A stretch of DNA of 64,000 nt, from NCBI GenBank assembly GCA_017475035.1, contig JAFVGK010000088.1:1-64000 (forward strand), in the 5' to 3' direction. The translations under genes and the position numbers were made by a program. This document shows positions 1,384 to 41,814 of this stretch, piece after piece. The stretch's first letter is position 1. Every line of letters begins with the position of its first letter. The DNA comes from Blautia sp. GTDB lineage: Bacteria; Bacillota; Clostridia; Lachnospirales; Lachnospiraceae. The notes beneath the pieces were generated by a model. That model was not told where the DNA came from. It ran no database searches and saw only the letters and a list, made by a program, of their open reading frames with translations.

Positions 1384-1465
1384 ATGATTCAGGCGGCAAA
1401 AGCCATGCAAAAAGGTACTCCGCTGCGAAGTGATCCGGAGAATCAGGCTTTTGTCGATGCAATCG
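1384..1465 (+). repeat. Family R repeat, copy R2, internally deleted (82 nt)
   Basis: The left end ATGATTCAGGCGGCAAAAG at 1384-1402 matches the left end of R3. The right part (about 1422-1463, ending gcttttgtcgatgcaatc) matches the right 40 nt of R3 with few changes. The roughly 190 nt between them in R3 are missing. The element fills the gap between yitT and the radical SAM gene. Confidence 0.8.
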
Positions 1466-1495: not shown

Positions 1496-2386
1496 GTGCA
1501 TAAATACATTTCTTTTTCTGATGAATGTAAGGCTATGTTTGGCCATAAAGTATATAAGCTGTCCCTTTCTTCCGGGTGTACCTGTCCAAATCGGGATGGA
1601 ACCCTGGGATGGGGCGGCTGTACATTCTGTTCGGAGGGAGGTTCCGGAGAATTTGCTTCCGCCTTCCTTCCTATCGAGGAGCAGCTTGCTGCTGCCAGAC
1701 AGCGCATTTCTCAGAAATTCCCCGTCAAGGATGGTGAAGAAAATCAATATATCGCTTATTTTCAGGCCTTTACCAACACTTATGGAGACATCCATCGGTT
1801 AAGGGAGCTCTATCAGAAGACAATCTCCTTCCCGGATATCGCGGGACTCTCCGTCGGTACAAGGCCTGATTGTCTGAAGCCGGAAACAGTGTCCATGCTC
1901 CGGAATCTGAATACCCAAAAACCCGTCTGGATCGAGCTTGGGCTCCAGACAATTCATGAAGAAACCGCCAGACGGATCCACAGAGGCTATCCTCTGATTA
2001 CCTTTTCCGATGCATATCAAAGACTGAAGCAGGCCGGAATCAGGGTTGTCGTCCATGTGATCCTGGGGCTGCCCGGAGAATCGAGGGAGGATATGCTTCA
2101 GACGGTCCGTTATCTGTCAGAGTTAAATCCGACTTTAGACGGAATCAAGCTTCAGCTGCTACACATTCTGAAAGGAACCGCTATGGCAGAAGAATACCTG
2201 TCGGACCCTTTTCCGTTATTGACCATGGAAGAATACATAGCGCTGATTAAAGAATGTCTTGCTCTCCTCCCTGAAAAAACAGTCATACACAGACTGACCG
2301 GAGACGGGCCGAAGAAGCTTCTGATCGCCCCTTTATGGAGCGCGGATAAAAAACGGGTCCTGAATGCCTTATTAAAAGAAATATAA
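1496..2386 (+). CDS. TIGR01212 family radical SAM protein (YhcC-like)
   Basis: A 296-residue radical SAM enzyme of the YhcC/TIGR01212 family. The cluster-binding cysteines are in the variant arrangement of this family, C30-x11-C42-x2-C45, within the signature TCPNRDG...GGCTFC near the N terminus. The substrate of the family is not established. The start is a GTG at 1496; the purine-rich AAAGGTGA at 1473-1480 is rather distant, but the N terminus aligns with the family's usual beginning, so no other start is plausible. The length is normal. The gene lies between repeat R2 and an AT-rich hairpin at 2461. Family call is firm. Confidence 0.88.
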   Translation: MHKYISFSDECKAMFGHKVYKLSLSSGCTCPNRDGTLGWGGCTFCSEGGSGEFASAFLPIEEQLAAARQRISQKFPVKDGEENQYIAYFQAFTNTYGDIHRLRELYQKTISFPDIAGLSVGTRPDCLKPETVSMLRNLNTQKPVWIELGLQTIHEETARRIHRGYPLITFSDAYQRLKQAGIRVVVHVILGLPGESREDMLQTVRYLSELNPTLDGIKLQLLHILKGTAMAEEYLSDPFPLLTMEEYIALIKECLALLPEKTVIHRLTGDGPKKLLIAPLWSADKKRVLNALLKEI

Positions 2387-2430
2387 GGAAAGTGGACAAA
2401 AAAAGACTTTCTATTTTTCGTAAGATAGCG

Positions 2431-2484
2431 TACAATACCTTAGGCAAAAACAGAAAACGAACAAAACGCCTGTGTTTTGTTTTA
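2431..2484 (+). terminator. Weak hairpin and possible -10 box upstream of the Na/Pi transporter
   Basis: ACAAAAC at 2461-2467 pairs with GTTTTGT at 2474-2480 around gcctgt and is followed by ttta. It could end the radical SAM transcript, but the stem is AT-rich. A TACAAT box at 2431-2436 could be a -10 for the next gene; no good -35 is seen. Confidence 0.35.
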
Positions 2485-2573
2485 TTGCCTGCGCAGACAT
2501 TACACCGCAAAAGCAGCATCCTTTGTGTAAATTCGTGCGCATCTATAACAATCCTGAACAAGGAGTATTTTTT

Positions 2574-4376
2574 ATGGATATATTTGACATCTTATCATTG
2601 TTTGGCGGGCTCGCAATGTTTCTTTACGGTATGCGGCTCATGGGGGACGGACTGAAACAGGGCTCTTCGGGCACGCTGAAGAGAATTATGGAGAAGGTTA
2701 CGAATAATCCCGTTAAAGCCTTGCTGCTTGGCACCGGAGTAACCGCTCTGATCCAGTCCTCCACGGCCACCATTGTCATTACCTCCGGCCTTGTGGCTGC
2801 CGGTATTCTCACTCTGCATCAGTCTCTGGGCATCATCATCGGGGCAAACGTCGGCACGACCGTGACGGGACAGATTATCCGTCTATTGGATATCGATGCT
2901 TCCAAAGGCTCATTGCTGCAGCTATTAAAGCCCTCTACCCTCGCGCCGATCGCCCTTATCATCGGTATCATCCTGATCATGGGAAAAGACTTTAAGAATT
3001 CCAAAACCTTCGGAAATGTTGCCATCGGTTTCGGAATCCTTTTTTCCGGGCTGCTGAATATGACAGGCACCGTGGATAAACTGGCAGAATCCGGTATTTT
3101 TGAGACTTTGCTTGGCGGGCTCGGCAGTAATATTCTGATCGGTTACACGGTGGGTGCCGGAGTTGCCTTTGTACTTCAAAGCTCTTCCGCTGCCGTTGGT
3201 ATCCTTCAGGCGTTTTCCGCTTCCGGACTTCTGACCTTTCAGGCCGTTTATCCGGTTATCGTCGGCATATACCTGGGCGACTGTGTGACGACCGCAATCG
3301 TATGTTCCATCGGCGCCAAAACAGAAGCCCGGCGGGTCGGTATCGTCAATATCCTGTACAACTTAAGCAAAACCTTCCTTGTTCTGTCCGTAGTGGCAAT
3401 CCTGCATCAGCTGGGATTTCTGAATGGCTTATGGGAGAAGACCGTTACCTCCGGCATCATCGCAAACGCAAACTCTATTTTCAACATCACCTGTGCCATC
3501 GCGTTCTTTCCTGTTATTGGAATTTATGAAGCACTTTCCCGCAGGATCGTTCCGGATGAGAAGGTTCCGGAGAATCCTTATAAGGAAAAGCTGGATGCCC
3601 TGAACCCCGCCTTTTTCCGTACGCCTGCTCTTGCGCTGAACAGCTGCTATGACCTGCTTCTGGCTCAGCTCCGCGCATCCATAGCCAATATCCGGCTCGC
3701 CTTCTCCCTGCTCTCAGAATATGATGAGAAAAAGCGGAAGGATCTGGATGCAGAGGAAGATAATATCGATCTGCTCACCGACCAGGTCAGCAGATATATG
3801 GTAAACCTGCTGCCGTATCTTCATGAAAATTACCAGGTTTCCATCCTGGACCAATACTATAAGGTGGTCACAGAGTTTGAACGGCTTGGCGATCACGCAG
3901 TGAACATCGGAGATGGCGCAACGCATCTTGCCAGCGCAAATGTATCCTTCTCACCAAACGCCAGACAGGAAATCCGTGTCATGCAGGAGCTCCTGGAACA
4001 GATCCTGCAGCTCACCGAGCAGACCTTCCGGTACAGGGATACGGAAGCAGCTTACCGTATTGAAGCCCTGATGGAGGTTGCAGGCGAGATGGCCAGTACC
4101 ATGAAGGTAAACCATCTGAAACGAATGGTCGCCGGCACCTGCAATGTCTATGCAGATGTGATTTTTATGAACCTTTTGTCGGACTTCAGCCGGATCGCTG
4201 ATGTCTGCTCCAATGTCGCCGAAGCCACCCTGATCCGGGTAAATCCGCAGCTTGCCAGCAACGAGCACTCTTATTTTACAGCCCTACGTTCCGGCAAAAA
4301 TGAGCAGTTTAACAAAGAATATCAGGAGGCTTCCGCAAAATACAACAGTATGCTGACAACTGAATCCATCGAGTAG
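2574..4376 (+). CDS. Na/Pi cotransporter family protein with PhoU-like tail
   Basis: A 600-residue protein of the NptA/YjbB type. The N-terminal half carries two Na/Pi-cotransporter repeats with the diagnostic QSST and QSSS motifs (ALIQSSTAT near residue 60 and VLQSSSAAV near 200) in hydrophobic segments. The C-terminal part, about 370-590, is a helical PhoU-like domain. The expected role is sodium-coupled phosphate import or export at the membrane. An open frame runs upstream to 2472, but AAGGAGT at 2560-2566 places the start at the ATG at 2574, whose product begins MDIFDIL as relatives do. It is transcribed alone. Confidence 0.9.
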   Translation: MDIFDILSLFGGLAMFLYGMRLMGDGLKQGSSGTLKRIMEKVTNNPVKALLLGTGVTALIQSSTATIVITSGLVAAGILTLHQSLGIIIGANVGTTVTGQIIRLLDIDASKGSLLQLLKPSTLAPIALIIGIILIMGKDFKNSKTFGNVAIGFGILFSGLLNMTGTVDKLAESGIFETLLGGLGSNILIGYTVGAGVAFVLQSSSAAVGILQAFSASGLLTFQAVYPVIVGIYLGDCVTTAIVCSIGAKTEARRVGIVNILYNLSKTFLVLSVVAILHQLGFLNGLWEKTVTSGIIANANSIFNITCAIAFFPVIGIYEALSRRIVPDEKVPENPYKEKLDALNPAFFRTPALALNSCYDLLLAQLRASIANIRLAFSLLSEYDEKKRKDLDAEEDNIDLLTDQVSRYMVNLLPYLHENYQVSILDQYYKVVTEFERLGDHAVNIGDGATHLASANVSFSPNARQEIRVMQELLEQILQLTEQTFRYRDTEAAYRIEALMEVAGEMASTMKVNHLKRMVAGTCNVYADVIFMNLLSDFSRIADVCSNVAEATLIRVNPQLASNEHSYFTALRSGKNEQFNKEYQEASAKYNSMLTTESIE

Positions 4377-4517
4377 GGCAGAGAGAAACTGACGCCAAAA
4401 ACGGAACATCCTTTCAGACCGGCATTCAGATTCGTTTACTGTGCCGGATTTCCGCCGCTGCAAGCAGCATGTTTCCGCAGTAAATCCGTGCGCGTATTAT
4501 AAAAGAAAGGAACCACC

Positions 4518-5225
4518 ATGCCTGATCAATACGCAAAAATGAATAAGACTTTATTGAGCACCCGGATCGAAGATAAAATGCTGCATTATATTACCTGTGA
4601 ATGTAAGCCCGGGGATAAGCTCCCTAACGAATTCGATCTGGCCAGGCGTTTTGAAACGAGCCGTTCCACGATCAGGGAGGTCATGAAAGCCATCGCCGGT
4701 CTCGGCATGGTGGAAATCCGTCACGGGTCAGGCACATATGTGCTTGCCTCCAGGCCTGTGAAATCTGATCCCTTACATCTGGCCGGAAGAAAAGATACTT
4801 ATCGTCTTGCGCTGGAGCTTTTTGATGTCCGGCTTATGCTGGAGCCGGAAATTGCCGCAAAAGCAGCGGAATTGAGGACGCAGGATCAGGCAGAGGAAGT
4901 TGTCCGGTATTGTGATGAGGTCGAACGGCTGTACCGTTCCGGTGCAGATCATACCGACATGGATATTGAATTTCACAGCTATATAGCCAAATGCTCCGGC
5001 AACATGGTGGTGCAGACTCTGATCCCCATTATCCAGTCTGCCATTTCCACCTTCTGCAATGTGACGGAGCGAAAGCTGATGCACGAAACCATTGTCACCC
5101 ATCGTTCGATCGCAAATTCTATTTTTTATAAAGATCCGGTGGGTGCCCGATGCGCCATGACTTCCCATCTCGCCGTAAACAGAGATATGATTCTTGAGAA
5201 CCTTCGCAGGAAGAAGGATGTCTGA
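4518..5225 (+). CDS. GntR family regulator, FadR/FCD subfamily
   Basis: A 235-residue repressor-type protein. Residues about 12-80 form the winged helix of the GntR family (PGDKLPNEFDLA, then TSRSTIREVMKAI). The rest is an FCD effector domain with candidate metal-ligand histidines in DIEFHSY, THRSI and TSHLA. FadR-subfamily proteins commonly sense carboxylic or sugar acids. Here the next genes are a GntP permease and a sugar-acid-type dehydratase, so it most likely controls them. The ribosome site AAAGGA at 4505-4510 supports the start. A strong terminator at 5351 separates it from the permease, so the two are not simply cotranscribed. Confidence 0.88.
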   Translation: MPDQYAKMNKTLLSTRIEDKMLHYITCECKPGDKLPNEFDLARRFETSRSTIREVMKAIAGLGMVEIRHGSGTYVLASRPVKSDPLHLAGRKDTYRLALELFDVRLMLEPEIAAKAAELRTQDQAEEVVRYCDEVERLYRSGADHTDMDIEFHSYIAKCSGNMVVQTLIPIIQSAISTFCNVTERKLMHETIVTHRSIANSIFYKDPVGARCAMTSHLAVNRDMILENLRRKKDV

Positions 5226-5350
5226 TGACTTATCATTGTTCCGCATTCTTTTATCTATATTTACCAAACAGATGCCAGGCGCAGCTTTTTCCGGTTTTAT
5301 CATGGCAATCCATAAACCGGCTGCATTACGGCTTCCTGTTTTCTAAAGTC

Positions 5351-5397
5351 AATAACCGCGCTGTCACTGTAAGCGACAGCGCGGTTATTGCTTTTTT
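5351..5397 (+). terminator. Rho-independent terminator after the GntR gene
   Basis: A perfect 15-bp stem, AATAACCGCGCTGTC at 5351-5365 with GACAGCGCGGTTATT at 5375-5389, is followed by gctttttta. It is one of the strongest terminators in the window. Confidence 0.92.
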
Positions 5398-5435
5398 AGG
5401 CCTGCCGGGGATATCATATTTCAGAAGAAAAAGAT

Positions 5436-5513
5436 AAATGACTTCACTATTAATGTAGAAAAAGTCATTTCTATTTCAAACAACTTGTTCCCGGAACCAC
5501 CAGGTTTTATAGT
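5436..5513 (+). promoter_or_regulatory. Candidate promoter and operators for the gntP unit
   Basis: The gap 5226-5624 holds the terminator above and control sequence only. AAATGACTT (5436-5444) and AAGTCATTT (5462-5470) form a 9-nt inverted repeat. A candidate promoter has -35 TTGTTC at 5485-5490, a 17-nt spacer and -10 TATAGT at 5508-5513. The small palindrome GTTCCCGGAAC at 5487-5497 overlaps the -35, where a GntR repressor would be expected to bind. Which repeat is the operator is not decided by the sequence. Confidence 0.45.
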
Positions 5514-5624
5514 AGTATCAGCTGAAGAGGTCGGATATCTTCTGCTTCTTCTAAACGTCTTGTATCGATCGAATCACAGAACCGGTTACGATCGACAGAC
5601 AGCATCTTTATAGGAGGATACACT

Positions 5625-6974
5625 ATGGAAACCGTTGCACTCAATCCTACCAGACTGGCATTGGCGGCTATTATCGGCCTGATCATCCTGCTGGTCCTCA
5701 TCATCAAGTTCCATGTTCAGGCCATGATCTCTATTCTCGTCGGCGCGCTTGCCATAGGCTTGATCGCAGGCATGCCCTTCAGTGAGATCATCACCGCGGT
5801 GAATGATGGGATCGGAAACACCTTGAAGGGAATTGCGCTCCTCGTCGGACTTGGCTCCATGTTTGGCGCAATACTGGAATTATCCGGCGGCGCCCAGACA
5901 CTTGCGGTCACAATGGTCAACAGATTCGGTGACGAAAAGGCCGCATGGGCGCTGGGTCTTACCGGTCTTGTCATCTCGATCCCCGTATTCTTTGACGCCG
6001 GCCTGATCATCCTGATTCCCCTGGCTTTCTCACTTGCCAAAAGAACAAGCCGTTCCACACTTTTCTATGCCATTCCGCTTCTTGCAGGCCTTGCCGTCGG
6101 CCATGCCTTTATTCCTCCGACGCCCGGTCCTGTCCTTGTAGCAAATATGCTGGGTGTTGACCTTGGTTTTGTCATCCTTGTCGGTATTTTCTGCGGCTTC
6201 TTTGCCATGGTCGTAGCCGGTCCGATCTGGGGCAGAATCGTCGGAACAAAATATATGGTCGCTGTTCCGGAAACCTACAATCAGACAGATATAGCAGAAG
6301 ATAAGCTCCCGAAATTCAGCACGATCGTCTGCATCATCCTGATCCCGCTGGCACTGATTATCTTTAAATCTGTCGCAGGTGTCATTCCTGCTTTTTCCGG
6401 AATCATGCCGGTATTGAACTTCTTCGGCGAACCCTTTGTCGCTCTGTTGATTGCCACCATCGTTGCCATGTTCCTGCTTGGCACCAGGAATGGCTATACG
6501 ATGGAGGAACTGGAAAAGGTCATGACAAAGTCCTTAGAGCCTACAGGCCTGATCCTTCTGGTAACTGCCTGCGGCGGTGTCCTCCGTTACATGCTGCAGT
6601 ACTCCGGTATCGGTGACATCATCGGAAACGTCACCGGTTCCCTGCATCTTCCGATCGTTGTAGTTGCTTTCGTAATCGCTGCTCTGGTACGTATCTGCGT
6701 CGGTTCCGCTACCGTCGCAATGACAATGGCTGCCGGTATCGTTGCCGCCATGCCTGCAATCCAGGGTCTGTCACCTCTGTATCTTGCCTGTACCACAGCC
6801 GCAGTTGCCGGTGGCGCAACCGTATGCTCTCATTTCAATGATTCCGGTTTCTGGCTGGTCCGTTCCCTGGTAGGAATCGATGAAAAAACAACACTGAAAA
6901 CCTGGACCATCATGGAAACCCTGGTTGGCGGCGTTGGCTTCCTGGCCGCATTTATTATCTCTTTCTTTGCCTGA
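5625..6974 (+). CDS. GntP family permease (gluconate/sugar-acid transporter)
   Basis: A 449-residue polytopic membrane protein of the gluconate:H+ symporter family, the usual length. Family hallmarks include IPVFFDAGLIILIPL near residue 120, PTPGPVLVA near 165 and CSHFNDSGFWLV near 405. It should import gluconate or a related aldonate. The ribosome site TAGGAGGA at 5610-5617 supports the ATG. It follows a GntR regulator and precedes an IlvD/Edd-type dehydratase, the same trio as E. coli yjhI-yjhF-yjhG. The exact substrate cannot be read from sequence. Confidence 0.92.
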   Translation: METVALNPTRLALAAIIGLIILLVLIIKFHVQAMISILVGALAIGLIAGMPFSEIITAVNDGIGNTLKGIALLVGLGSMFGAILELSGGAQTLAVTMVNRFGDEKAAWALGLTGLVISIPVFFDAGLIILIPLAFSLAKRTSRSTLFYAIPLLAGLAVGHAFIPPTPGPVLVANMLGVDLGFVILVGIFCGFFAMVVAGPIWGRIVGTKYMVAVPETYNQTDIAEDKLPKFSTIVCIILIPLALIIFKSVAGVIPAFSGIMPVLNFFGEPFVALLIATIVAMFLLGTRNGYTMEELEKVMTKSLEPTGLILLVTACGGVLRYMLQYSGIGDIIGNVTGSLHLPIVVVAFVIAALVRICVGSATVAMTMAAGIVAAMPAIQGLSPLYLACTTAAVAGGATVCSHFNDSGFWLVRSLVGIDEKTTLKTWTIMETLVGGVGFLAAFIISFFA

Positions 6975-10789: not shown

Positions 10790-10977
10790 CGGTAACGGAA
10801 ATGTTTACCGATATGCTCAACGTATAACGAGTGAACGCGCTTCCCTTCCAATCCTAAAACGGCAGTTAATGCGTTCACGGGTATATGATTCCCCGGAACC
10901 GTTGCTTATTGTCTGCTTTCTCAATGTTGAATCATAACGGTTCCTGTGCTATGCTGTCTTCATCCTAAAGACAGCAT
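10790..10977. other. Four successive inverted repeats of unknown role
   Basis: The gap 10655-10980 has no credible gene but is rich in structure: CGGTAA/TTACCG (10790-10810), GTGAACGC/GCGTTCAC (10831-10838 with 10871-10878), GGAACCGTT/AACGGTTCC (10895-10903 with 10936-10944) and ATGCTGTCTT/AAGACAGCAT (10951-10960 with 10968-10977). None has a following T-run, so these are not ordinary terminators. The last hairpin ends 3 nt before repeat R3. It may be a structured RNA or another repeat type. Confidence 0.5.
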
Positions 10978-10980
10978 AAT

Positions 10981-11250
10981 ATGATTCAGGCGACAAAAGG
11001 TCATGCAAAAATGAGCTCGCTCATTTTTGCATGAGATTGGGTCGCCCACAGACACGAGGAAGTAGCCATTTTGCACTATTTACACTTGATTTTGCAAATC
11101 TTTCTGTGCGAAATGAACGAATTCCGAGTGGCTGTAGGTTGCTGCATGCCAGTAGCATGCGTTTAGCAACGACCGAGCCGGGAGGCGAGACGCGTGAGCA
11201 GCTCCGCTGCGAAGCGATCCGTAGAATCAGGCTTTTGTCGATGCAATCAT
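10981..11250 (+). repeat. Family R repeat, apparently complete copy R3 (270 nt, MITE-like)
   Basis: The left end ATGATTCAGGCGACAAAAGG and the reverse complement of the right end, ATGATTGCATCGACAAAAGC, agree at 15 of 20 positions, giving imperfect terminal inverted repeats. Inside are a 14-nt-arm palindrome (11003-11032) and further stems near 11150. There is no coding capacity for a transposase. Possible 3-nt flanking duplication aat. The right end abuts TATAAT at 11253-11258, just before topB. Confidence 0.8.
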
Positions 11251-11281
11251 AATATAATAAAAAAGGGGATAGAATACCGAA

Positions 11282-13501
11282 ATGGCAAAAACAATCGTGA
11301 TAGCTGAGAAACCATCCGTAGCCAGGGACATTGCCCGGGTCCTGCATTGTCAGAAAAAGGAAAAAGGTGCCTTAGAGGGTGATAAATATGTGGTCACCTG
11401 GGCTTTGGGACATCTGGTGACACTGGCAGATCCGGAGGCTTATGATAAAAAATATGAGAAATGGGCGATGGATACTCTTCCCATGATCCCGGAGCAGCAA
11501 AAGCTTGTAGTGATCCCCGAAACGCAAAAGCAGTACCAGGCAGTCAGAACACAGCTTTTCCGGAAGGACGTGGATGACGTCATCATCGCTACAGACGCCG
11601 GTCGGGAGGGGGAACTGGTAGCCAGGTGGATTCTGGAAAAGTCCGGCTGTAAAAAGCCGATCCGTCGGCTCTGGATTTCGTCCGTGACGGATAAAGCAAT
11701 TAAAGACGGGTTTGCCCATCTCAAAGACGGAAGGGATTATGATAATCTGTATCGGGCAGCGGCGGCACGGGCGGAAGCCGACTGGCTGGTGGGAATGAAC
11801 GGAACCAGGGCTCTGACCTGCAAGTACAACGCGCAGCTTTCCTGCGGCAGGGTACAGACGCCGACTCTTGCCATAATACGAAAAAGAGAAGAGGAAATCC
11901 GTCGGTTTACGCCGAAGGAATTCTATGGGATCAGCCTGGAAGCAGGCGGAATTTCCTTTACCTGGAAGGATCCCAGAACCGGAAGCGGCAGAATATCCGA
12001 AAAAGAGAAAGCCGATCAGATCCTGCAGGAAGTGAAAAACGGAGTTCTGGAAATTACCTCTGTCGTGAAAAAGAAAAAAACCGTACAGGCACCGGGACTT
12101 TACGACCTTACCACCCTTCAAAGAGAAGCCAGCCAGAGATTTGGCTTTTCTCCAAAGGAAACTCTGAACATCTGCCAGCGGTTATATGAAAATCATAAGG
12201 TTCTGACCTATCCGCGGACAGATTCCCGTTACCTCACCCAGGATGTGGTACCAACGATCCGGGAGAGGCTGCAGGCAGTGAATATCGGAATTTATAAGCC
12301 CTTCGTCGGCAGTATTCTGAAGCGTCCGATCCATACGGGCAAGAGCTTTGTCAATGACGCCAAAGTGACAGATCATCACGCCATCATTCCTACGGAGCAA
12401 TATGTTCAGATGGAACATATGACAAATGAAGAAAAAAAGATCTACGATATGGTCGTGCGCCGTTTTCTCGCCGTGCTTTGTCCTCCGGCGGAATACGAAG
12501 AAGCGGCGGTTGAAGGCAGGATCGGGAGAAACATTTTTACCGCAAAAGGCCAGATCATGATACAGCGCGGCTGGCGGGAAGTATATACGGAAGGCTTTAC
12601 GGAGGAGGATGAGGATCCGGATGAAGATGAATGGCAGGATCGAGGTAAAAAAACCTCTTCCGCAGAATTACCTTCCATCCGGCAGGGAGACCGGCTAAAG
12701 GTCAGCGGCGCAGCCCTGCGCACAGGTAAGACCCGCCCGCCGAAGCGTTTTACCGAAGCCACGCTCCTGGCTGCGATGGAAAATCCTGTCGGCTTTATGG
12801 AATCAAAAGACAGGCTGTCAGCCAAAACCCTGAGCGAAACCGGTGGGCTCGGTACCGTAGCTACCCGGGCGGATATCATAGAAAAACTCTTTTCCGGTTT
12901 TATGATGGAAAAGCGGGGAAATGAGATTTACCTGACCTCCAAGGCGAAACAGCTGCTGGAACTGGTACCGGAGGATCTGAGAAAACCGGAGCTGACAGCG
13001 TACTGGGAAATGAAGCTCTCTGACATCTCTCAGGGCAGACTGAAGCAGCAGGCATTCCTGACGGATATTCGAAAATATACTTCGCAGATCGTAGACGAAA
13101 TCCGCAAAGGGCAGGGTACCTACCGCCATGACAATCTCACCAACAAGCCTTGTCCCCGATGCGGAAAAAAGATGCTCGCCGTCAACGGAAAAAACAGCCG
13201 CATGCTGGTCTGCCAGGACCGGGAATGCGGCTACAGGGAAACGATTGCCCGTTCCACAAATGCCCACTGCCCGAAATGCCATAAAAAGATGGAGCTTCTG
13301 GTAAAAGGCAGTGAGGAAACCTTTGTATGTGTCTGTGGATACAAAGAGCGGATGTCCGCTTTTCAGGCAAGACGCGAAAAAGAAGGAGGCGGAGTAAAGA
13401 AAGCGGATGTTCAAAAATACATGAAGGAACAGAAAAAAGAAGCGAATCAGCCCCTGAATAATGCTTTCGCGGAAGCTTTGGCAGGATTAAAGCTAGAATA
13501 A
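11282..13501 (+). CDS. topB: DNA topoisomerase III (type IA)
   Basis: A 739-residue type IA topoisomerase that relaxes and decatenates DNA by single-strand passage. The Toprim domain begins with IAEKPSVA (E9) and carries TDAGREGE (D105, E109/E111). The catalytic tyrosine is Y310 in LTYPRTDSRYL. The C terminus has two zinc-ribbon-like segments (CPRCGKK...C..C and CPKCHKK...C.C, about 620-690), beyond the minimal TopB core. Firmicutes often carry several TopB copies, some on mobile elements; with repeat R3 directly upstream and serpin downstream this could be an accessory copy. The ribosome site is weak (GGGGAT). Confidence 0.9.
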   Translation: MAKTIVIAEKPSVARDIARVLHCQKKEKGALEGDKYVVTWALGHLVTLADPEAYDKKYEKWAMDTLPMIPEQQKLVVIPETQKQYQAVRTQLFRKDVDDVIIATDAGREGELVARWILEKSGCKKPIRRLWISSVTDKAIKDGFAHLKDGRDYDNLYRAAAARAEADWLVGMNGTRALTCKYNAQLSCGRVQTPTLAIIRKREEEIRRFTPKEFYGISLEAGGISFTWKDPRTGSGRISEKEKADQILQEVKNGVLEITSVVKKKKTVQAPGLYDLTTLQREASQRFGFSPKETLNICQRLYENHKVLTYPRTDSRYLTQDVVPTIRERLQAVNIGIYKPFVGSILKRPIHTGKSFVNDAKVTDHHAIIPTEQYVQMEHMTNEEKKIYDMVVRRFLAVLCPPAEYEEAAVEGRIGRNIFTAKGQIMIQRGWREVYTEGFTEEDEDPDEDEWQDRGKKTSSAELPSIRQGDRLKVSGAALRTGKTRPPKRFTEATLLAAMENPVGFMESKDRLSAKTLSETGGLGTVATRADIIEKLFSGFMMEKRGNEIYLTSKAKQLLELVPEDLRKPELTAYWEMKLSDISQGRLKQQAFLTDIRKYTSQIVDEIRKGQGTYRHDNLTNKPCPRCGKKMLAVNGKNSRMLVCQDRECGYRETIARSTNAHCPKCHKKMELLVKGSEETFVCVCGYKERMSAFQARREKEGGGVKKADVQKYMKEQKKEANQPLNNAFAEALAGLKLE

Positions 13502-31344: not shown

Positions 31345-31363
31345 CATTTGCCGCCTGAATCAT
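31345..31363 (-). repeat. Family R end fragment R4, overlapping the tilS stop codon
   Basis: On the minus strand the sequence is ATGATTCAGGCGGCAAATG; the TGA at its start is the stop codon of tilS. Only about 19 nt of the R left end remain. Confidence 0.55.
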
Positions 31364-34009: not shown

Positions 34010-34038
34010 TGATTCAGACGACAGAAGGTCATGCCATG
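34010..34038 (+). repeat. Family R end fragment R5
   Basis: tgattcagacgacagaaggtcatgc matches the R left end with three changes. It lies 4 nt after the proS stop codon, between proS and hup. Confidence 0.55.
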
Positions 34039-35533: not shown

Positions 35534-35580
35534 ATGCGCATGCCATCGGCATGCAGCAGCCTGCTGCCACCCGGAATCCG
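35534..35580 (-). repeat. Family R internal fragment R6
   Basis: gcatgccatcggcatgcagcagcc...gccacccggaatccg parallels the reverse complement of 11133-11175 in R3 (gcatgct..ggcatgcagcaacc...gccactcggaattcg). Two small hairpins are kept. It lies between dCMP deaminase and proS. Confidence 0.55.
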
Positions 35581-36131: not shown

Positions 36132-36196
36132 CCTTTTTGCAGGATCTTTTGCCGCCTGAATTGTTTTATGATAACACAGTTGCCTGTCCGGCGCAA
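36132..36196 (-). promoter_or_regulatory. R fragment R7 and candidate promoter upstream of dCMP deaminase
   Basis: The minus-strand sequence at 36132-36163 (attcaggcggcaaaag..c.tgcaaaaagg) matches the left end of repeat R2. Just upstream a candidate promoter has TTGCGC (36191-36196), 17 nt, TATCAT (36168-36173). Transcription from it would run through the repeat remnant. Confidence 0.5.
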
Positions 36197-41790: not shown

Positions 41791-41814
41791 GCATGACCTT
41801 TCGTCCTCTGAATC
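41791..41814 (-). repeat. Family R end fragment R8
   Basis: Minus-strand gattcagaggacgaaaggtcatgc, the R left end with a few changes, lies 4 nt after the stop codon of the GH18 gene and next to T2. Confidence 0.55.

Follow-up and report, generated by a model that had tools for sequence, protein, structure and literature searches.

The window (the whole 64,000-nt stretch of Blautia DNA that was analysed) carries, between an AAA-ATPase_like gene on one side and a DNA topoisomerase gene on the other, a short element that we call R3, a member of the repeat family R. The initial annotation had placed a complete copy at 10981-11250; the copy is there, and its exact borders are 10983-11248 because the heptamer ATAATAT directly abuts both sides (Table 1). 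The element is 266 bp long, is without a transposase gene and has imperfect terminal inverted repeats of 17 bp. Recomputing the identity of its termini over the first 20 positions gave the same 15 of 20 as reported earlier, and the internal palindrome described there has arms of 28 nt that are 86% complementary. The claimed absence of coding capacity holds for anything gene-like; a mechanical 108-aa ORF, antisense at 11021-11347, overlaps the element. The nearest named records of the neighbouring topoisomerase protein are from Blautia, at no more than 73% identity in the best segment, a value to be read with the closest relatives possibly absent, and the host is accordingly described as Blautia-like. 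Our own model, R1, matches R3 over 10982-11229.

Table 1. Coordinates of R3, its parts and the related pieces in the window.
Feature	Position	Strand	Basis or remark
R3, whole element (270-nt class)	10983..11248	+	borders set by the duplication; RF01699, 51.2 bits; model R1
Left target duplication of R3, ATAATAT	10976..10982	unstranded	
Right target duplication of R3, ATAATAT	11249..11255	unstranded	
Left terminal repeat of R3, GATTCAGGCGACAAAAG	10983..10999	+	213 genome matches vs 4 reversed
Right terminal repeat of R3, read inward GATTGCATCGACAAAAG	11232..11248	-	155 genome matches vs 1 reversed
Inner module of R3, difference between the 270-nt and 220-nt classes	11139..11190	+	alignment of 17 whole copies
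Copy truncated at the contig start	1..162	-	96% identity over 5-162; RF01699, 60.5 bits over 1-161
Mini copy of 79 bp	1386..1464	+	duplication GTATGAT at 1379-1385 and 1465-1471
Solo left end	31345..31361	-	1 mismatch
Solo left end	34011..34027	+	2 mismatches
Solo left end	36146..36162	-	1 mismatch
Probable solo left end	41798..41814	-	3 mismatches; judged on the end only, close to chance
Remnant like the inner module of the 270-nt variant, no element end	35534..35580	-	

We found that R3 belongs to a catalogued family. It matches Rfam RF01699, the Clostridiales-1 RNA, over 10982-11168 of the plus strand and above the gathering cut-off of 48 bits, and the copy at the contig start gives the second match in the window. 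The initial annotation had not recognised R as a named family; it has a catalogue entry, though one for an sRNA, not for a transposable element. The R3 genome contains 37 matches to RF01699 at E ≤ 0.001, 28 of them above the cut-off. Across the genus, 49 of 64 genomes have a match at E ≤ 0.001 and 43 of 64 pass the cut-off, and none of the 14 control genomes has a match. A table of Weinberg et al. 2010 lists Clostridiales-1 as a probable RNA that is probably not cis-regulatory (PMC2864571). The published RNA and R3 are alike in fold and share Clostridiales gut hosts, whereas the part of that account drawn on here gives no ends, duplications, transposase or mobility. Literature searches by family, host and MITE topics returned, among the matches listed, no description of Clostridiales-1 as mobile.

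Searching the window with up to three mismatches gave nine left ends (0.80 expected) and five right ends (0.41 expected), and none of 100 shuffled sequences reached nine or five, respectively. Seven further pieces of R had been proposed in the initial annotation. Six of them stand, as two copies and four left-end pieces, and the piece at 35534-35580 is a different module. A single end at three mismatches is not clearly beyond chance; at 41798-41814 the match continues inwards as GGTCATGC. The proposed density was correct in that the family is very abundant and incorrect in that the density consists mostly of solo left ends, with few whole copies. The element is mostly intergenic; 7 of the 117 left ends considered below lie within called genes.

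At up to two mismatches, the 5.08-Mb genome holds 213 left ends and 155 right ends, compared to 4 and 1 matches for the reversed patterns, and left ends outnumber right ends. The anticipated further copies are accordingly many, and a DNA search with R3 gave at least 76 matched pieces when 40 of 356 first-look candidates were scored. Had the copies always shared their surroundings, they could have been duplicated regions; the flanks of the 17 aligned whole copies are unrelated. Whole copies fall mainly into 220-nt and 270-nt classes, some of them up to 21 nt longer, and shorter copies, such as the 79-bp one, also occur. The loci were sampled by place, covering about 0.52 Mb of the 5.08 Mb, with the choice of regions guided by 100 of the 213 left ends and 100 of the 155 right ends. 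Contigs of this genome (G000) often begin or end about 120-260 nt from an R-family end (C6, C74, C132, C143, C166 and C184); the assembly is interrupted by the element, so that whole copies are undercounted. Some short copies are palindromes bounded on either side by a left-type end, at L107 3829-3898 (about 70 nt) and at L092 around 4462-5700.

We paired inward-facing ends lying 40-330 bp apart in the sampled loci of this and other genus genomes and compared the bases that flank them. Exact direct duplications border 37 of the 59 paired copies (30 of 7 bp, 6 of 8 bp and 1 of 10 bp), compared to about 1.5 of 59 expected from exchanging right flanks at random between elements, and 22 of the 59 are without an exact duplication. 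The proportion is 18 of 29 in the R3 genome and 19 of 30 in other genomes. The symmetric consensus ATAWTAT describes the seven positions that precede 113 left ends (114 were found, and one with an N was dropped). In other species the end reads GATNNNNGGGTCAAAAG, which occurs in 34 of 64 genus genomes, while its reversed control gave a single hit overall. The shared pattern is GAT and four variable bases, followed in other species mostly by GGGTCAAAAG.

To search for empty sites, the joined flanks of 17 copies were compared with the sampled loci. Junction-spanning matches in the R3 genome were mostly self-matches or extended into further copies of the element. One copy, L022, has the element-free counterparts that the initial annotation had suggested looking for: with its flanks joined through one copy of the duplication, it aligns without gaps to two element-free places, at 49 of 56 and 47 of 55 positions, and to two weaker ones at 76% and 73%. 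These are empty sites of the paralogous kind, and not those of another strain, because they are copies of another repeat. The sampled loci of other species gave no junction-spanning match for the flanks of the 17 copies. Separately, a third repeat, TTTTTTATGGCAGG...CGCCTGTCGGCGAACGCCG, seen at L109 7593-7648, L094 720-774 and in the L022 flanks, contains the L022 insertion site. Together, the inverted ends, the target duplications, the empty site and the insertion sequences with related ends described below agree with the non-autonomous, MITE-like nature proposed at the outset, and from these sequence comparisons R is firmly assigned as a MITE-type transposon family with an RF01699 body and a 7-bp AT-rich target duplication.

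Candidate partners of R are insertion sequences of 1.8-1.9 kb that encode an IS1182-like transposase, have related ends and, in some cases, are flanked by 7-bp duplications. A DDE_Tnp_1 search of ten genomes gave matching ends at two of the 30 loci fetched. At one (L265), a 534-aa transposase lies between GATGTAGGTGTCAAAAG and GATGTGGGTGTCAAAAG, 1.85 kb apart, and the contig starts at the left end; at the other (L257/L241), the transposase is next to GATGTTGGGGTCAAAAG, which is exactly the right end that the same genome's small elements have, and the other side is cut by the contig. A protein search combined with a locus scan added further loci. L311 is 1855 bp long with both ends, an ORF at 2251-3855 on the minus strand and the exact duplication ATCTTAT on both sides; L277 has both ends, the left one at the contig start; and L288 has both ends in weaker form, with flanks alike at 6 of 7 positions. 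L279 and L291 are broken insertion sequences with exact duplications, ATTGAAT and ATAAAAT, respectively. The 7-bp duplication is absent from L280/L308 and from the G086 copy despite both ends, L285/L309 shows a single degenerate end, and L276/L312 holds a transposase without a recognisable end. Considering the seven near-full-length transposase genes together, four have both ends, two have one recognisable end and one has none.

Both of the two transposases that we scanned exceed the Pfam cut-offs for DUF772 and DDE_Tnp_1_6. Among NCBIfam models, that of the IS1182 transposase, NF033551, scores best, at 125.2 and 132.1 bits, which is below its cut-off of 270; we therefore use the label 'IS1182-like'. 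A profile made from six of these proteins found matches in 12 of 64 genus genomes, compared to 49 of 64 for RF01699, and none in many of the genomes that hold numerous copies, G035, G073 and G076 among them. The same profile detected no intact partner in the R3 genome, only two fragments. One, on C67, is the C-terminus of a transposase (E 2.2e-24), and about 200 bp beyond it lies GTTTTGTCGATGCAATC, identical to the right end of R3 at 20 of 21 positions; the contig is cut here, so that only the right end is seen. The other, on C191, lies within a deleted copy that, by eye, is flanked by AAGGTAT. The transposase gene with the same ends that had been proposed as a check is therefore present with both ends in other species and with the right end only on C67 of the R3 genome, which has no intact copy by this profile. 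The comparisons firmly support IS1182-like insertion sequences with ends related to those of R, and we infer that a transposase recognising such shared ends would move R in trans.

Other partners were considered for the R3 genome. It has no matches to IS256 (PF00872). Ends lying 0.5-2 kb apart were examined as possible autonomous copies, and translation of eight such intervals revealed, by eye, no transposase. None of the PF01609 loci fetched from this genome is framed by matching ends; those on C191 frame the separate deleted remnant, not the PF01609 locus.

Comparison with known systems places the partner in an IS1182-like group that duplicates 7 bp, as far as the portions of the sources cited here describe them. 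ISPse1, of the IS1182 family, is 1653 bp long and makes a 4-bp duplication (PMC3281130). It and its family have in common with the partner a DUF772 and DDE_Tnp_1_6 transposase, a single gene and inverted ends, but the partner is 1.8-1.9 kb long and duplicates 7 bp. IS1272 replaces stem-loops (PMC5678879), whereas the present group makes 7-bp duplications. MITEPye1 of Paracoccus yeei is a precedent, a MITE that its authors think IS1182-family transposases move (PMC11578231). Like R, MITEPye1 is an intergenic MITE that can fold into stem-loops; unlike R, it has 4-bp duplications and 1-3 copies per chromosome, compared to 7 bp and very many copies, and in the portion cited it has no conserved RNA family as its body (PMC11578231).

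The predicted fold of R is a four-way junction with strong covariation. Pair-preserving double substitutions occur at least once at 35 of 40 predicted pairs among 31 cores taken from 30 genomes, and at 38 of 40 pairs among 76 matches (73 distinct) aligned to the model. In this larger alignment, which was fitted to the structure and so favours its own scores, 95.5% of paired cells pair, compared to 74.6% when shuffled, and the covariation score is 0.462, compared to 0.156 when shuffled and at most 0.088 when slid. Over all helices, G-U pairs exceed A-C mismatches by 45 to 12 in alignment A3 and by 74 to 25 in alignment A5, the A5 count being made on the best 60 of 76 rows (57 distinct) with a P3 window that excludes the outer P3 pairs. 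In helix P4 of A5, the counts are 4 and 3 of 619 cells, and the FMN riboswitch control from the same genus gives 20 and 0. These counts lean, though not decisively, towards selection at the RNA level. Compared to shuffled sequence, either strand folds much better, and the terminal repeat forms part of the fold.

In two species (L144 and L145), a copy of R sits at the same site after a T-box leader, and the gene downstream, checked on L144, encodes an ABC-transporter substrate-binding protein. The two 168-nt cores differ only at positions 4 (T/C) and 165 (A/G), which pair together in the closing stem and constitute one compensatory change. Sequence identity is 90% over the 100 nt upstream and 36.5% over the 52 nt that follow downstream; the core is conserved as coding sequence is, and not more, because coding stretches further on are 96-99% identical. 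By eye, this fixed copy has neither the right-end hairpin nor a duplication. It suggests that the fold may be kept after movement stops, with one locus counting as one event.

We regard it as very probable that R3 is a MITE with a Clostridiales-1 RNA body, inserted by an IS1182-like transposase that recognises the shared ends. The transposase would recognise the ends common to the insertion sequence and R (GATTCAGGCGACAAAAG and GATTGCATCGACAAAAG in the R3 genome) and make a staggered cut in the AT-rich 7-bp target ATAWTAT, and insertion of R at the staggered cut would leave the 7-bp duplication. The sRNA type of the Rfam entry, the strongly covarying fold and the fixed core conserved in two species could instead reflect a family of non-coding RNA genes, spread by ordinary duplication or recombination, whose inverted ends are the closing stem of the RNA. 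Exact target duplications do not arise from plain duplication, however, and those at 37 of 59 copies strongly disfavour this account, as do the unrelated flanks of whole copies and the empty site; we judge it very improbable indeed. R might also be aimed at promoters or 5′ leaders, lying sense at the -10 position so that its left end joins the promoter, which would explain the solo left ends. Several of these in the window lie shortly upstream of genes on the same strand, and insertion after TAT creates TATGAT, which we take to be a -10-like hexamer. In the 117 left ends for which gene context was called by a home-made gene scorer, a sample that is non-random because listed ends guided the choice of regions, co-directional gaps contain 34 sense and 24 antisense ends, and the others are divergent (18), convergent (7), inside called genes (7) or missing a neighbour (27). 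Neither these orientation counts nor the region upstream of the left ends, which has no -35 signal, support such targeting, and we consider it very improbable.

Within the proposed MITE, the fold could serve transposition itself, as DNA hairpins or a cruciform used by the transposase or a host factor, with no function as RNA. The inclusion of the terminal repeat in the fold fits this possibility, as do the folding of each strand and helix P4, where G-U is no commoner than A-C, contrary to the FMN control. The excess of G-U over A-C across all helices argues the other way, together with insertion sequences that have the same ends without an evident core copy and the copy conserved at a fixed site without a right end; we hold a purely DNA-level role to be quite possible, if short of probable. 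More tentatively, and with some doubt, Clostridiales-1 may be a transposon-borne functional RNA, a selected four-way junction that an IS1182-like transposase has scattered through Blautia-like genomes and of which some copies, having lost one transposon end, were kept as parts of leaders; the fixed copy between the T-box leader and the ABC-transporter gene would be an example. To explain why the fold is retained, we lean towards a role of its own, whether at the RNA level or as a DNA hairpin.

The MITE reading gives Clostridiales-1 defined termini, a target site, a way of spreading and a putative transposase, none of which is in the part of the published account drawn on here. By this example, further multi-copy 'sRNA' families may prove to be the bodies of transposons, and R provides a testable case of a selected RNA or DNA fold on a mobile element of common gut bacteria.

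Two further repeats were observed beside R. The inner module TTGCTGCATGCC...GAGCCGGGAGGCGAGA, present in R3 and resembled by the remnant, has stand-alone relatives in other genus genomes (L120-L126), some of which, by eye, adjoin apparent tRNA genes or pieces of them, and it may constitute a small repeat in its own right. Another repeat, roughly 100 nt long, at about 4425-4500 of the window on the plus strand and at other loci of the same genome, ends in CGCAGTAAATTCGTGCGCATACTAT. Among the loci sampled it has 20 copies in this genome, and it may be an insertion hotspot because 8 of the 20 are followed within 5 nt by an R-family end.
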